From Verrucomicrobiota bacterium JB022 (GTDB taxonomy: Bacteria > Verrucomicrobiota > Verrucomicrobiia > Opitutales > Oceanipulchritudinaceae), in NCBI GenBank assembly GCA_030673845.1, contig JAUTCQ010000017.1, positions 310,001 to 374,000 of the forward strand: a stretch of DNA of 64,000 nt, in the 5' to 3' direction. Positions 7,059 to 41,629 of the stretch are shown here, in pieces (positions within the stretch are counted from its first letter, which is position 1; each line of letters opens with the position of its first letter). The notes beneath the pieces are model-generated. The model was not told where the DNA came from. It worked only from the letters and a program-made list of their open reading frames with translations, and made no database searches. The translations under genes and the position numbers were made by a program.

Positions 7059-8519
7059 TTACCCCTTCACCACGTCGTAGCCATCTTTGCGATCCAGGAT
7101 TTGCCAGCCTTTGGCGGTCAGCTCGGCGCGGAGGGCGTCGGCGGCGGCGAAGTCGCGGGACTGCTTGGCTTGCCAGCGCTTTTCGGCCAGTTCGGCGATC
7201 TCGGCGGGGACTTCGACCGCTTCGGGCTCCTCTTCCTTCGCCGTAAAGAGCGGGATGCCGAGGGCGTAGAGCAGGGTGGCCGCACCTTGCAGGGCCGCAC
7301 GGGCTTCGTCGGCGGACTCGATGCGCTTGCTGGCACGCTTGACGGCGCTGAAGAGGCTGCCGAGCGCCGCCGGCGTGTTCAAGTCGTGGCAAAGGGCCTT
7401 CCACGCGTTTTCGAATTCGCCCAGGTCACCCGCGAACGGCGGCACGAGCTGGCCGAACTCTTCGCGGCTCATGCCGGACTTTTCGAGCAGGGGCAGGAGG
7501 CCCTTTTCGAGCTTTTCGAGGCCGCTCTGAGCGGCGGCGATGCCGGAGAGGGTAAAGTTGAACTGCTGGCGGTAATGGCCTTGCAGGAAGGCTAACCGGA
7601 TGGCGGCGGGTGAGTAGCCCTTTTCCAGCAAGTCGTCGATGGTGAAGAAGTTGCCGAGGCTCTTGGACATCTTCTTGCCCTCGACGAGCAGGTGCGTGCT
7701 GTGCATCCAGTGGCGGCAAAACGGCTGGCCGGTGGCGGCTTCGCTCTGCGCGATCTCGTTTTCGTGGTGGGGGAAGCACAGGTCTTCGCCGCCGCCGTGC
7801 AGGTCGAACGACGGGCCGAGGTAGCGCATGCTCATGGCGCTGCACTCGAGGTGCCAGCCCGGGCGGCCCGCGATCTCCTTGCCCGTCTCCGGGTGCTTGG
7901 GGCCTTGCCAGAGGTTGGGGCCGTCTTCGGTCTTGTGTGCCTTCCAGAGGGCAAAGTCGGCCACGGCTTCGCGCTCGTATTCGTCGGCCAGGTTGGCGGT
8001 GCCGGCGCTGTTGGTGTCCTGCGAACGCAGTTGCTCCGGGTCGAAGTGGGCCAGCTTTCCGTAGTCGGCAAAGCTCGTCACGCGGTAGTAGACGCTGCCG
8101 TCGCCGCCGACATAGGCGTGGCCCTTCTTCAACAGCTCCTCGACCAGCTCGATCTGCTCCTTGATGTGGTCGGTCGCGCGCGGCTCGACATCGGGGGTCA
8201 AGAGGTTGAGCGCGCCGCAGTCCTCGTGGAATTTGTCGGTCCAGCGCTGGGTAAACTGAAGCAGCGACAGGCCTTCTTCGAGCGAGCGGCGGATCGTCTT
8301 GTCATCCACATCGGTGATGTTGCGCACGTAGTAGGGCTCGTAGCCGGCCACTTGCAGTGTGCGATAAAGCACGTCGAAGCGCGTGAAGGTGATGAAGTTA
8401 CCGATGTGCGCCGGGCCGTAGACGGTCGGTCCACACACGTAGAGCTGGTAGCGTTCACCCGCCCGCTTTTCGAGCGCCTTGACTTCCCGACTCAGGGTAT
8501 CGTGCAACTTGATCACCAT
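7059..8519 (-). CDS. cysS: cysteine--tRNA ligase
   Basis: A 486-residue class I aminoacyl-tRNA synthetase charging tRNA-Cys. The HIGH-type signature is in CGPTVYGPAHIGNF, with the zinc-ligand Cys29 and HIGN at 38-41. Two further zinc-site regions follow, GWHLECSAMS and GGGEDLCFPHHENE. The KMSKS motif is in KKMSKSLGNFF near residue 283. The C-terminal helical region ends in AKGWQILDRKDGYDVVKG, usual for CysS. It lies downstream of leuS on the same strand but is separated by a 360-base repeat-bearing gap, so co-transcription is doubtful. Confidence 0.97.
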   Translation of the reverse strand: MVIKLHDTLSREVKALEKRAGERYQLYVCGPTVYGPAHIGNFITFTRFDVLYRTLQVAGYEPYYVRNITDVDDKTIRRSLEEGLSLLQFTQRWTDKFHEDCGALNLLTPDVEPRATDHIKEQIELVEELLKKGHAYVGGDGSVYYRVTSFADYGKLAHFDPEQLRSQDTNSAGTANLADEYEREAVADFALWKAHKTEDGPNLWQGPKHPETGKEIAGRPGWHLECSAMSMRYLGPSFDLHGGGEDLCFPHHENEIAQSEAATGQPFCRHWMHSTHLLVEGKKMSKSLGNFFTIDDLLEKGYSPAAIRLAFLQGHYRQQFNFTLSGIAAAQSGLEKLEKGLLPLLEKSGMSREEFGQLVPPFAGDLGEFENAWKALCHDLNTPAALGSLFSAVKRASKRIESADEARAALQGAATLLYALGIPLFTAKEEEPEAVEVPAEIAELAEKRWQAKQSRDFAAADALRAELTAKGWQILDRKDGYDVVKG

Positions 8520-8881
8520 GCCCTAAACAAAGAGGCCCACTCCGGGACGAATTCAACACAAAACGGGCGAAGTTGGCGGACTAAGGCTGGCACCCGAAGG
8601 GTGCAGGTTTAGGCAGACGGTAACCGGAAGTCGCCTGCGGCGACATCGCGGCTAATCGCTGACATCCCTGAAGGGATGCAGGAAAGCTTTCTCCCGCAAA
8701 GAGCCAGAGCATCCGCAGGATGCCAGCGATTAGCCGGATTTCGGAGCGTTAGCGACGACTTCCGGTAATGCCACAAAAACGGAAAAGCACCCTTTGGGTG
8801 CCAGCGCGCCTACACCGCTCCAACAAAACGGGCGTGCCTTGGTGAAGACACGCCCGTCACAAATCAAACCACCAATCTCCC
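8520..8881. repeat. compound nested palindrome in a 362-base gap between leuS and cysS
   Basis: The gap holds four small perfect hairpins: GCACCC-GAA-GGGTGC at 8590-8604, CATCCC-TGAA-GGGATG at 8663-8678, GCATCC-GCA-GGATGC at 8709-8723 and GCACCC-TTT-GGGTGC at 8787-8801. They are arranged symmetrically. Between them, ACCGGAAGTCG (8623-8633) pairs with 8756-8766, and GGCTAATCGCTG (8650-8661) pairs with 8724-8735. All pairs share a centre near 8693, where AAAGCTTT lies at 8683-8690. The unit is therefore about 212 bases of palindromes within a palindrome. No coding potential is apparent. The leuS terminator is also in the gap. Confidence 0.75.
8822..8857 (-). terminator. rho-independent terminator of leuS
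   Basis: On the minus strand, ACGGGCGTG and CACGCCCGT form a 9-bp GC-rich stem with a 12-base loop, followed by TTTTG. It starts about 25 bases after the leuS stop codon. Confidence 0.8.
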
Positions 8882-11461
8882 CTAATTCGCTACCACGTTG
8901 AGGATCTTGCCGGGGACGTAGATGACCTTGCGGATCGTCTTGCCTTCGAGGTGGGGGGCCACCTTCGGGTCGGCCTTGGCCTGTTCGAGCACCTGGGCTT
9001 GCGTGGCGTCTTTGGCGACGAGGGCTTCGCCGCGCGGCTTGCCGTTGATCAGCAGGCCGATCTTCACCTCCGAGGATTCAAGCAGCGAGGCGTCGTACTT
9101 CGGCCACGGTGCCTTGGCCACGGTGCCTTCGCCGCCGAGGCGCGCCCACAGCTCTTCCGCGATGTGCGGGCAGATGGGGGCGAGCAACTGGGCGAGAGTG
9201 CGGCCGGTCGAGGCCTGGACGGTCTCGGCCTTTGTCACGTGGTTCATGAAGATCATCATCTGGCTGACGGCCGTGTTGAAGCGGATGTGCTCCATGTCTT
9301 CCGACACCTTCTTGATCGTCTCGTGCAGCAGCTTGAGCGTATCGGGCTGCTCGTCGCCTTCGGTCTGCACCTTGGCGTTGAGGCTGCCGTCGCGCCCGCA
9401 GAACTCGTTCCACGTCTTCTGGAGGAAGCGGTAGACGCCCTTGATGCCGTCGCTCTTCCACGGCTTCATGTCTTCGAGCGGCCCCATAAACATGAGGTAG
9501 GCGCGCAGGGCGTCGGCCCCGAACTCGCTGATGTAGTCGTCGGGGTTGACCACGTTGCCGCGGCTCTTGGACATCTTTTCGCCGTCTTCGCCGAGGATGA
9601 TGCCCTGGTGGAAGAGGCGCAGGAAGGGCTCGGGCTCCTTCAGCACGCCGATGTCGACGAGCACCTGGTGCCAGAAGCGGGCGTAGAGCAGGTGAAGCGT
9701 TACGTGCTCGGTGCCGCCCATGTAAAAGTCGACACTGCCCCAGTAGTCGCGGATTTCCGGCGCGATCAATTCGTCCACGTTCTTGGGATCGAGGTAGCGC
9801 AGGTAATACCAGCAGCTACCGGCCCACTGCGGCATGGTGTTGGTTTCGCGGCGGGCGGGCACCCATTCGTCGCCTTGCGGGCGCTCTTCGGTGCGGCTGA
9901 CGCCTTCACCCGTGCGCAGGTTGAACCAGATGTCGACCCACTTGGTGATCTTGGCCAGCGGGCTTTCGCCGGTGCCGCTCGGCTGATAGTTTTCCGTCTC
10001 CGGCAACGTCAGCGGCAGTTGCGAGGGGGGCACAGGCAGGCCGTAGAAGGTCTCGCCCTGGTCTGCGTAGGCCACGGCTTCGGTCGGCATGTTGTCTGCC
10101 ACTTCGCCGCCAAGGGCCTTGGCTTGCTCGTAGGCGGCCTGATCGACAAAGACGATGGGGAAGGGCTCGCCCCAATAACGCTGACGGCTGAAGAGCCAGT
10201 CGCGCAGGCGGTAATTGACCTGGGCCTGACCGCGCTGCTTCTGCTCCAGCCACTTGATCATGGCGGCCTTGGCCTCCTCGATCTGCATGCCGTTGAGGAA
10301 GTCGCTGTTGATCGCGGGGCCGTCGCCGGTGTAAGCTCGTCCATTGAAGTCCTCCGGCGGCTGCACCGTACGCAGGATCGGCAGGTCGTACGTCTCGGCA
10401 AATTCCCAGTCGCGCTCGTCCTGACCGGGCACGGCCATGATCGCGCCGGTGCCGTAGCTGGCCAGCACGTAATCGGCGATCCAGATGGGCACGCGCTTGC
10501 CGTTGACGGGGTTGAGCGCGTAGCTGCCGGTGAAGACGCCCGTCTTGACCTTGGCCAGCTCGGTGCGCTCCAGGTCGCTCTTTTTCGCCGCCGCCTCGAT
10601 GTAGGCGTCGACGAGGGGGCGCTGCGCCTCGTTGGTCAGTTGCGGCACCAGCTTGTGCTCGGGCGAGAGCACCATGTAGGTGACGCCAAAGAGCGTGTCG
10701 GGCCGGGTGGTGTAAATCTCGATCTGCGCATCGCTCTCGGCCACGTCAAACGTGACTTGCGCGCCGGTGCTGCGGCCGATCCAGTGGGCCTGCTGCTTTT
10801 TCGACGATTCGGGCCAGTTGACGTTTTCGAGGCCCTGCAACAGCTTCTCGGCGTAGTTGGTGATGCGCAGCACCCATTGGCGCAGGTTCTTGCGCACCAC
10901 GGGGTGGCCGCCGACTTCGCTCTTGCCGTCGATCACTTCCTCATTGGCCAGCACGGTGCCGAGCGCGGGGCACCAGTTGACGGGCTGCTCGCTGACGTAG
11001 GCCAGACCGTGCTTGTAGAGCTGCAGGAAGATCCACTGCGTCCACTTGAAGTAGATCGGGTCGGTCGTGTTGATCTCGCGGTCCCAGTCGATGGCGAGGC
11101 CCAGCTTGTTCAGCTGACTGGTGAAATTCTTGACGTTTTGCTGGGTCGTCACGCGCGGGTGCTGACCCGTCTTGATCGCATACTGCTCCGCCGGCAGGCC
11201 AAAGGCGTCCCAACCCATCGGGTGCAGCACATTGTGGCCGGTGGCCCACTTGTAGCGCGCGAGCACGTCGCCCCCGGTAAAGTTCTCCGCGTGGCCCGCA
11301 TGGAGGCCCGCCCCGGAGGGGTAGGGATACATCTCCATGACGTAGTATTTGGGGCGCGTCGTGTCTCCGTCGATTGCGCGGAAGGTTTTTTCCACCGCCC
11401 ATTGCTTTTGCCAATAGGCTTCAATCGCCGAAAAGTCGTAATCTTTGCACTGCGTGGCCAT
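8882..11461 (-). CDS. leuS: leucine--tRNA ligase
   Basis: An 859-residue class I synthetase charging tRNA-Leu. The HIGH motif is HAGH at residues 54-57 (PYPSGAGLHAGHAENF). The editing domain follows around residues 220-420, with TTRPDTLFGVTYMVLSPEH and GTGAIMAVPGQDERDWEFA. KMSKS is in GEKMSKSRGNVVNPDD near residue 627. The C-terminal anticodon-binding region ends in KGKIL-type sequence (KVIYVPGKILNVVAN). Length and domain order are normal for bacterial LeuS. A weak purine stretch (AGAGAGCG) precedes the start. Its own terminator isolates it from cysS. Confidence 0.97.
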   Translation of the reverse strand: MATQCKDYDFSAIEAYWQKQWAVEKTFRAIDGDTTRPKYYVMEMYPYPSGAGLHAGHAENFTGGDVLARYKWATGHNVLHPMGWDAFGLPAEQYAIKTGQHPRVTTQQNVKNFTSQLNKLGLAIDWDREINTTDPIYFKWTQWIFLQLYKHGLAYVSEQPVNWCPALGTVLANEEVIDGKSEVGGHPVVRKNLRQWVLRITNYAEKLLQGLENVNWPESSKKQQAHWIGRSTGAQVTFDVAESDAQIEIYTTRPDTLFGVTYMVLSPEHKLVPQLTNEAQRPLVDAYIEAAAKKSDLERTELAKVKTGVFTGSYALNPVNGKRVPIWIADYVLASYGTGAIMAVPGQDERDWEFAETYDLPILRTVQPPEDFNGRAYTGDGPAINSDFLNGMQIEEAKAAMIKWLEQKQRGQAQVNYRLRDWLFSRQRYWGEPFPIVFVDQAAYEQAKALGGEVADNMPTEAVAYADQGETFYGLPVPPSQLPLTLPETENYQPSGTGESPLAKITKWVDIWFNLRTGEGVSRTEERPQGDEWVPARRETNTMPQWAGSCWYYLRYLDPKNVDELIAPEIRDYWGSVDFYMGGTEHVTLHLLYARFWHQVLVDIGVLKEPEPFLRLFHQGIILGEDGEKMSKSRGNVVNPDDYISEFGADALRAYLMFMGPLEDMKPWKSDGIKGVYRFLQKTWNEFCGRDGSLNAKVQTEGDEQPDTLKLLHETIKKVSEDMEHIRFNTAVSQMMIFMNHVTKAETVQASTGRTLAQLLAPICPHIAEELWARLGGEGTVAKAPWPKYDASLLESSEVKIGLLINGKPRGEALVAKDATQAQVLEQAKADPKVAPHLEGKTIRKVIYVPGKILNVVAN

Positions 11462-39836: not shown

Positions 39837-41095
<1,259 letters not shown>

Positions 41096-41404
41096 TGTTA
41101 CGTTGAGCGAACCTTTCCGCATTGGCACCCCTCCAGGGTGCTTTATGTTTCGAACGGTTACCTGCAGTGTCGGTTCGCTTTGCGAACCTCAACGCAGGCT
41201 AAGTGATGGCATCCCTTCGGGATGCTGTAACTTACAGCAATCCAGAGGCTTGCCAGCTCTTAGCGCGGGGTTGAGGTCCGCACCAGCGGGCCGATACCCC
41301 GGGTTCTTCTTTGCTCATCCCCGGTCCTCACAAGGCCGGGGATTTTTTATTGCCAACTTTCGGAGGCGATTGACGGATGATGATGACGCCCTATGATGAC
41401 GTTC
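41096..41404. repeat. clustered hairpins downstream of the phosphofructokinase gene
   Basis: This 309-base gap contains GCACCC-CTCCA-GGGTGC at 41125-41141, GGTTCGC-TTT-GCGAACC at 41172-41188 (flanked by CCTGC/GCAGG), GCATCCC-TTC-GGGATGC at 41209-41225 and CTGTAA-C-TTACAG at 41225-41237, followed by the terminator. The segment GGCTAAGTGATGGCATCCC resembles GGCTAATCGCTGACATCCC in the repeat at 8520-8881, so both probably belong to one dispersed family. No gene is seen before the antitoxin start. Confidence 0.7.
41317..41349 (+). terminator. rho-independent terminator of gpmI-pfp
   Basis: ATCCCCGG and CCGGGGAT form an 8-bp stem around an 11-base loop, followed by TTTTTTATT on the plus strand. 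It lies about 220 bases after the phosphofructokinase stop, beyond the hairpin cluster. Confidence 0.8.
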
Positions 41405-41629
41405 ATGCGCACCATCATCGAAGTGCCCGAGGACGTCATTGCTTCGCTGGATCGGATCGGGGAGCGCGAGCAGCGGTCGCGGGCGGCCCTTATCCGCGAA
41501 GCGATTCAGGCCTACCTGCGGCAAAAGCAGGCTTCAGAAGCTGCCGACGCCTTTGGCATCTGGAAAAACCGTCAGGAAGACGGGCTGTCGTATCAAGAGC
41601 GTTTGCGGGGTGAATGGGACGCTGAATGA
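41405..41629 (+). CDS. ribbon-helix-helix antitoxin
   Basis: A 74-residue protein. MRTIIEVPEDVIASLDRIGE followed by RSRAALIREAIQAYL is a ribbon-helix-helix DNA-binding domain of the CopG/Arc type; the C-terminal part (FGIWKNRQEDGLSYQERLR) would bind and block the toxin. The start is placed at the Met before RTIIEV rather than 4 codons upstream. Its stop overlaps the toxin start by four bases. Such antitoxins usually repress their own promoter. Confidence 0.85.
   Translation: MRTIIEVPEDVIASLDRIGEREQRSRAALIREAIQAYLRQKQASEAADAFGIWKNRQEDGLSYQERLRGEWDAE

Follow-up and report, generated by a model that had tools for sequence, protein, structure and literature searches.

The locus lies in a window of 64,000 nucleotides, the whole stretch of DNA that was analysed, from Verrucomicrobiota bacterium JB022. 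Two genes on the minus strand, leuS (8882-11461) and cysS (7059-8519), flank the gap in which the original prediction had placed a nested palindrome, and both are confirmed by NCBIfam models (TIGR00396, 1001.9 bits against a cut-off of 548.4, and TIGR00435, 423.7 bits against a cut-off of 340, respectively). The palindromic element occupies 8586-8805 and lies ~67 bases before the start of cysS, as read on the strand of that gene. Directly past the leuS stop lies a terminator-like inverted repeat (8828-8857), and a T-rich run comes after it on the leuS strand.

The element consists of two half-units in inverted orientation, a doublet with three hairpins per half, bounded by GCTG and CAGC at its edges, as seen in its fold, its paired arms and its copies. 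Each half runs in the order outer hairpin (H_out), REP-like hairpin (REP) and inner hairpin (H_in). In the left half, GCTG (8586-8589) directly precedes H_out, GCACCC-GAA-GGGTGC (8590-8604, plus strand), which is followed by a bulged REP-like hairpin of the 31-nt subtype, CCGGAAGTCG...CGACATCGCGGCTA (8624-8654, minus strand), whose NTAG foot on the minus strand points toward the centre, and by H_in, CATCCC-TGAA-GGGATG (8663-8678, plus strand). Beyond a central spacer of 29 nt (8680-8708), the right half begins with H_in, GCATCC-GCA-GGATGC (8709-8723, minus strand), and CAGC (8724-8727), continues with a bulged REP-like hairpin of the 35-nt subtype, TAGCCGGATTTCG...CGACTTCCGG (8731-8765, plus strand, with a TTAG foot at 8730-8733), and closes with H_out, GCACCC-TTT-GGGTGC (8787-8801, minus strand), and CAGC (8802-8805). 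The four small perfect hairpins of the original prediction are all present, and the two larger bulged REP-like hairpins, which it had missed, bring the total to six. Its two longer arm pairs are exact matches, with ACCGGAAGTCG at 8623-8633 (plus) and 8756-8766 (minus) and GGCTAATCGCTG at 8650-8661 (plus) and 8724-8735 (minus), and neither has a further exact match in the window. An inverted-repeat search finds two pairs of arms with 95% complementarity, 8586-8604/8787-8805 and 8649-8667/8718-8736, and the arm-pair centres fall at 8692.5-8695.5, in agreement with the proposed common centre near 8693. Folded as DNA, the element reaches -61.2 kcal/mol where the shuffles average -34.3 (z -7.84), and folded as RNA -115.7 where they average -71.8 (z -9.54); none of 200 shuffles was as good in either case.

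Dispersed copies and the pairing of their stems

A DNA search with the element region returned 75 matching pieces at E ≤ 10 in its own genome. The best copy is 82% identical over query bases 16-198 of 251, and the copies have diverged, so that recent movement is not evident. By script, 39 half-units were parsed, 34 in the own genome and 5 in the genus-mate G001, together with 16 inverted doublets (15 and 1, respectively), which span 211-441 bp except for one shortened copy of ~193 bp. Copies lie at ~20 places of the own genome, as the predicted REP/MITE-type unit with copies elsewhere would have it; within the window, neither BLAST nor pattern counts found a second copy of the element's family. 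Ten of the 15 own-genome doublets overlap ORFs by 0-27 bases and five by ≥35 bases, the ORFs being crude and possibly spurious.

A covariance model built from the half-units, mostly a sequence model with 7 pairs, was scored on 19 genomes at E ≤ 0.01. It matches both halves of the element, at C17:318589-318679 (plus) and 318709-318802 (minus), that is, window 8589-8679 and 8709-8802. Scoring covered the best 150 or fewer candidates per genome (of 2862 in the own genome and 2633 in G001), and the counts are lower bounds: at least 53 matches in the own genome and at least 62 in G001, with one weak match (E 0.0037) in G002 and none at this threshold among the candidates scored in 16 of the 19 genomes. 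In a DNA search of 55 genomes, the own genome included, with up to 14 candidates scored per genome, the matches at E ≤ 0.001 were confined to the own genome and G001.

By score and partly by sequence, 37 of the 53 own-genome matches were assigned to family A, the family of the element, and 16 to a related set B, for which 8 of the 16 loci were inspected, among them the degenerate C13:204380, which may belong to A or B. An element of set B with the same build lies in the window at 41122-41305, with H_out GCACCCCTCCAGGGTGC, REP CCTGCAG...GCAGGCTAAG and H_in GCATCCCTTCGGGATGC; its second half has a different REP (CTTAGCGCGGGG...CCCCGGG), and an outer hairpin was not seen there. On contig C27 of G001 (loci L097 and L076), a Y1 gene is surrounded by many set B half-units, spaced at intervals of a few hundred bases. 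Judged by the lower bounds, set B is apparently larger in G001 than in the own genome, and family A the opposite. G001 also carries an ~80-base stretch five times within 4.3 kb (C10:12152-16441), and again elsewhere in that genome.

The stems of the small hairpins are kept paired throughout the copies. Across the 39 half-units, 232 of 234 cells are paired in the outer stems and 228 of 234 in the inner stems, with 5 and 16 double-change cells against shuffle means of 0.54 and 2.66, respectively; with all 39 counted, none of 2000 shuffles reached the numbers of paired or of double-change cells, a test in which related sequences may beat such shuffles even without structure. When only distinct stems are counted (7 outer and 12 inner), the paired count was reached by 58 and 0 of 2000 shuffles, respectively, and the number of distinct inner-stem pairs with a double change by 38 of 2000. 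Some inner stems are swapped wholesale, such as GCAAGC/GCTTGC and CAAGCC/GGCTTG. In 12 of the 16 doublets, 27 stem positions differ between the two halves; at these positions the local pair holds in 47 of 54 cells and the long-range pair in 26 of 54, a comparison that disfavours long-range pairing by construction, so that the local count alone is taken as evidence. Within the small hairpins most stem changes are compensated, in line with the compensatory changes that the original prediction had called for; the opposite outcome that it had named, a sequence unique in the genome with neither copies nor such changes, did not occur. RNAalifold on a MAFFT alignment of the half-units recovers seven pairs only, all in the REP stem: the loops of the small hairpins differ in length, which leaves these hairpins misaligned, and the stem pairs were counted by script instead. 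Three rows stand outside the alignment and the counts, namely the degenerate C3:223011-223041 (CGGTTA for CGGCTA), the truncated C17:451358-451433 and C16:101019-101113.

At the REP foot, the hexamer CGGCTA (TAGCCG on the other strand) is found in all 39 aligned half-units, which were selected with a pattern that contains it and allows up to 2 errors, and the base preceding TAG is C in 19, T in 13, A in 5 and G in 2. The outer stem is preceded by TG in 39 of 39 half-units and by CTG in 28. Under a simple rule, which seems to mislabel one half (C3:223869), REP subtypes of ~31 and ~35 nt co-occur in 11 of 16 doublets, and such mixed-subtype doublets can be likened to the heterodimers discussed in the available part of PMC3733652. 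For the Marinomonas Mb REP system, the available text of PMC8266576 gives, with a CT-bearing substrate, strong enrichment only at the last two bases of GTAG.

A Y1 transposase gene and the build of its flanks

A profile search gave three Y1_Tnp matches in the own genome. One of these genes, hereafter tnp (C3:223244-223705, with the Y1_Tnp domain match at 223256-223594), lies between two doublets, C3:222879-223234 and C3:223700-223935; it starts a few bases past the left doublet, and its end runs into the edge of the right one. The original prediction of a transposase elsewhere in the genome therefore holds as to a Y1 gene between two copies, but the gene is not that of a canonical RAYT: it scores 71.6 bits with the IS200 model NF033573 (cut-off 55) and only 14.4 bits with the RAYT model NF047646 (cut-off 80). 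Of 25 relatives of tnp, the IS200 model matches all 25 at E ≤ 0.001 and the RAYT model 10, and the HUH motif (DHVH; H55, H57), Tyr113 and Gln117 are invariant in 25 of 25 aligned relatives. The nearest solved structures are 2fyx, 2xm3, 2xma, 2a6m (the ISHp608 transposase) and 2vhg. The closest homolog found, G001 C2:174863-175312, is 69% identical and has the same half-units on both sides.

Within the own genome, tnp alone belongs to the element's transposase family; both remaining Y1 genes are different. The second, C6:34985-35416, is 55% identical, and the repeats that adjoin it look by eye similar in build and other in sequence; our guess is that it serves set B. The third (L033, G000:C13:309577-309834) is closer to RAYT than to IS200: it scores 48.2 bits with the RAYT model (cut-off 80) and 18.2 with the IS200 model (cut-off 55), below both.

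The flanks of tnp relatives were scanned for a strict pattern of a hairpin, a TAG with a stem and a second hairpin, against dinucleotide shuffles. Around 55 tnp loci from the genome search, 30 of 108 flanks (23 of 55 loci) match, against 5 of 540 shuffles, and a relaxed scan of the same loci gives 38 of 108 against 6 of 540. In the best 80 of 580 relatives, a set of named loci, the strict pattern is present in 29 of 159 flanks and at 21 of 80 loci, compared with 7 of 795 shuffles; the relaxed scan of the 30 best named loci gives 25 of 59 against 3 of 295. Most flanks have no strict match (78 of 108 for the 55 loci and 130 of 159 for the best 80 of 580 relatives), several strict positives of the named set (L270, L283, L287 and L299) are by eye unlike the rest, and some positives look like chance. 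As controls, the cysS flanks of relatives were positive in 2 of 22 (11 of 14 loci used), both in G021, and tiles of the window in 2 of 122, both being the second window element at 41122-41305, with 11 of 610 shuffles positive. In G021 (L137 and L066), an A/T-rich hairpin repeat (TAGCGATTTATT...) adjoins both cysS and the tnp homolog.

Convincing builds come from records titled Planctomycetota, Verrucomicrobia-type, Acidobacteria-type (Chloracidobacterium and Thermoanaerobaculia), Sumerlaeota and Methylobacter, many of them MAGs whose taxon titles may mislead; they share the arrangement of the element and differ from it in sequence. In a further set of 55 loci, 25 from the genome-search set and the 30 best of the named set, the nearest half-unit has H_out toward the gene in 46 of 52 cases, and on both sides in 12 of 55 loci. 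Methylobacter tundripaludum SV96 carries a compact unit with tnp between two single half-units, and its genome gave no other match at E ≤ 0.01.

Origin of the doublets

A comparison with G001 bears on how the doublets came to their places. In that genome leuS is not upstream of cysS, and the gap that holds the element is a synteny break with no clean empty site. Of the 32 crude gaps in the window 20 are mappable and 5 of these are synteny breaks, including both element-bearing gaps (8519-8951 and 41095-41626); that the elements mark rearrangement points is only suggested by this. A presence/absence test of 18 places covered 1.2 of the ~4.1 Mb of G001: for 12 places one or both flanks had no match, and for the 6 with both flanks matched, 3 were colinear and 3 were not. 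The doublet C17:448 is absent at the colinear G001 place (C13 ~55,822), where about a dozen bases take its place, and the tnp locus is absent at its syntenic place, with 22 bases (C13:14311-14332) against 1228 in the own genome between the ends of the BLAST matches; at the third colinear place, C3:192, the G001 gap holds other sequence. The flanks of C3:216 lie on different G001 contigs, as do the best matches for the flanks of C13:323, and those of C3:41 lie on one contig in opposite directions. The differences at C17:448 and tnp record presence and absence and are no proof of insertion as against loss.

We consider it probable, at roughly 0.83, that the element is a non-autonomous REP/REPIN-like mobile doublet that would be moved as a single strand by the transposase of tnp, its movement being inferred. 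By analogy with the single-strand transposition of IS200/IS605 and of TnpA_REP, the hairpins may form in single-stranded DNA, for instance in the template of the lagging strand at a replication fork. The protein encoded by tnp would then recognise the REP hairpin with its NTAG foot, H_in and H_out serving as determinants on either side, cut via its tyrosine, excise the doublet and join it elsewhere. The long palindrome may exist largely because two like ends face each other, and the unlike halves, with REPs of 31 and 35 nt, may guard the doublet from removal as a perfect palindrome.

The NTAG feet point inward in doublets and outward around tnp, so the doublet is no simple product of an internal deletion in the tnp unit; two abutted ends would fit. 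Such abutment is the core of the best competing account, in which circle junctions or the loss of tnp left the doublets behind as end-to-end junctions or tandem remnants of an autonomous unit, [H_in-REP-H_out-tnp-H_out-REP-H_in], and the doublets do not replicate by themselves. The feet are arranged as abutted ends would give, the compact unit with one half-unit per side exists in Methylobacter tundripaludum SV96, and the absence of the tnp locus from the syntenic G001 place is also in its favour. Against it, the own genome has 15 parsed doublets for one tnp of the family, and the centres of some doublets are related. A centre of 24-36 nt is present in 6 of 16 doublets, and the 29-nt centre of the window copy is similar to those of three others, C4, C13:323 and C13:318 (0-1 of 1000 shuffles as good); the C12 centre is related to that of C4 (0 of 1000) and not to that of the window copy (221 of 1000). 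The C3:216 centre is related to no other tested centre, with 80 of 1000 shuffles as good for the window copy and at least 80 of 1000 throughout. These related centres suggest that the doublet spreads as one piece, and we regard an origin as mere junctions as unlikely, though a serious contender.

Three further accounts fare much worse than the mobile doublet. The element might be a structured RNA or a regulatory element of the leuS-cysS gap, such as a leader, a terminator or an mRNA-stabilising hairpin array, and its strong RNA fold and its position just upstream of cysS would suit this. An Rfam search of the region, however, gave nothing at gathering score, only two weak matches, the best being MIR9471 with 20.6 bits against 150; leuS has a terminator-like repeat of its own, and by eye no half-unit was seen over the 800 bases preceding the G001 cysS. 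With copies at some twenty places of the genome and no Rfam match at gathering score, the folded RNA that the original prediction had offered as its alternative is not needed, and this account is very improbable. A MITE derived from the tnp unit through an internal deletion would explain the terminal inverted repeats common to the element and the tnp locus, but such a deletion would leave H_in outermost, whereas H_out is outermost in all 16 parsed doublets, which makes this reading slightly less credible still. An account by a hot spot of recombination, or by palindromic debris left at rearrangement points by chance, would agree with the synteny breaks and the three non-colinear places described above, yet a sequence-conserved family, its association with a transposase, its conserved orientation and the position of C17:448 and the tnp locus in colinear DNA leave it no better a prospect than the deletion.

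Relation to known systems and meaning

HUH and YxxxQ motifs and hairpin ends are traits of the IS200/IS605 family. The present system shares them, together with the match to the TnpA model, and differs from that family in having three hairpins per end, a single TnpA gene of the element's family in the own genome and dispersed copies without a transposase gene.

With REPIN/RAYT systems, as described in the available part of Bertels and Rainey 2011 (PMC3116915), the element shares an inverted palindromic REP doublet with a variable spacer and compensatory changes, a Y1 gene with adjoining copies, and more than one family per genome. Those systems have one hairpin per half and a GTAG foot, whereas here there are three hairpins and NTAG, and the neighbour distances of GI and GII doublets, 71 and 110 bp (PMC3116915), compare with doublets of ~193-441 bp here. 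The transposase differs as well, that of the element scoring as IS200-type and below the RAYT cut-off. Because the foot is not GTAG (or GTRG) and the RAYT model falls short of its cut-off, this is not a canonical REP/RAYT system.

The TIRtrons (TIRYT) of the Di Nocera group (2013), in the available text of PMC3733652, have a Y1 gene framed by long terminal inverted repeats, sometimes double-palindromic, and moderately abundant dispersed TIR families; the tnp locus likewise has such long repeats on both sides of its Y1 gene and copies of them dispersed in the genome. That text also describes Pseudomonas composites of a degenerate GTAG-1 REP and an unrelated stem-loop. What sets the present system apart is one three-hairpin build across many sequence families of one clade, which was not found in that text. 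Class 3 TnpA_Y1, according to the available part of Quentin et al. 2018 (PMC6006769), shares the IS200-like Tyr...Gln motif and atypical dispersed flanking structures, is found principally in Planctomycetes, Acidobacteria and Proteobacteria, and has been considered to comprise possible intermediates between IS and REPtron. Its foot is given as CnGA, against NTAG and GCTG here, and its motif is printed with four dashes, against the three residues between Tyr113 and Gln117 here. As far as the available text of these sources goes, the system comes closest to TIRtrons whose TIRs are double-palindromic and composites of a REP and a stem-loop (PMC3733652), and to class 3 TnpA (PMC6006769); no description of a three-hairpin transposon end was found in the available text of the open-licence PMC literature. 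Apparently new with respect to known REP/REPIN-type repeats are the three-hairpin ends and the 'inside-out' doublet.

We tentatively propose, with rather less than an even chance, that a widespread IS200-like Y1 clade of Verrucomicrobiota, Planctomycetota, Acidobacteriota and some Proteobacteria uses such a tripartite end and has repeatedly yielded inside-out six-hairpin REPIN-like parasites. If true, this would be a living intermediate between IS and REP/REPIN, in which the step from a selfish IS to a domesticated repeat could be dissected, and it would bear on how REP/REPIN systems arose from IS200-type IS. Two sister species carry families of apparently different size, and a named strain of methanotroph has a compact version of the system. 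Palindromes nested in this way would be accounted for in these genomes and no longer be mistaken for RNAs, and a clade of IS200-like proteins would gain a concrete, recurrent DNA partner with definable parts: the NTAG foot, H_in, H_out and their orientation.
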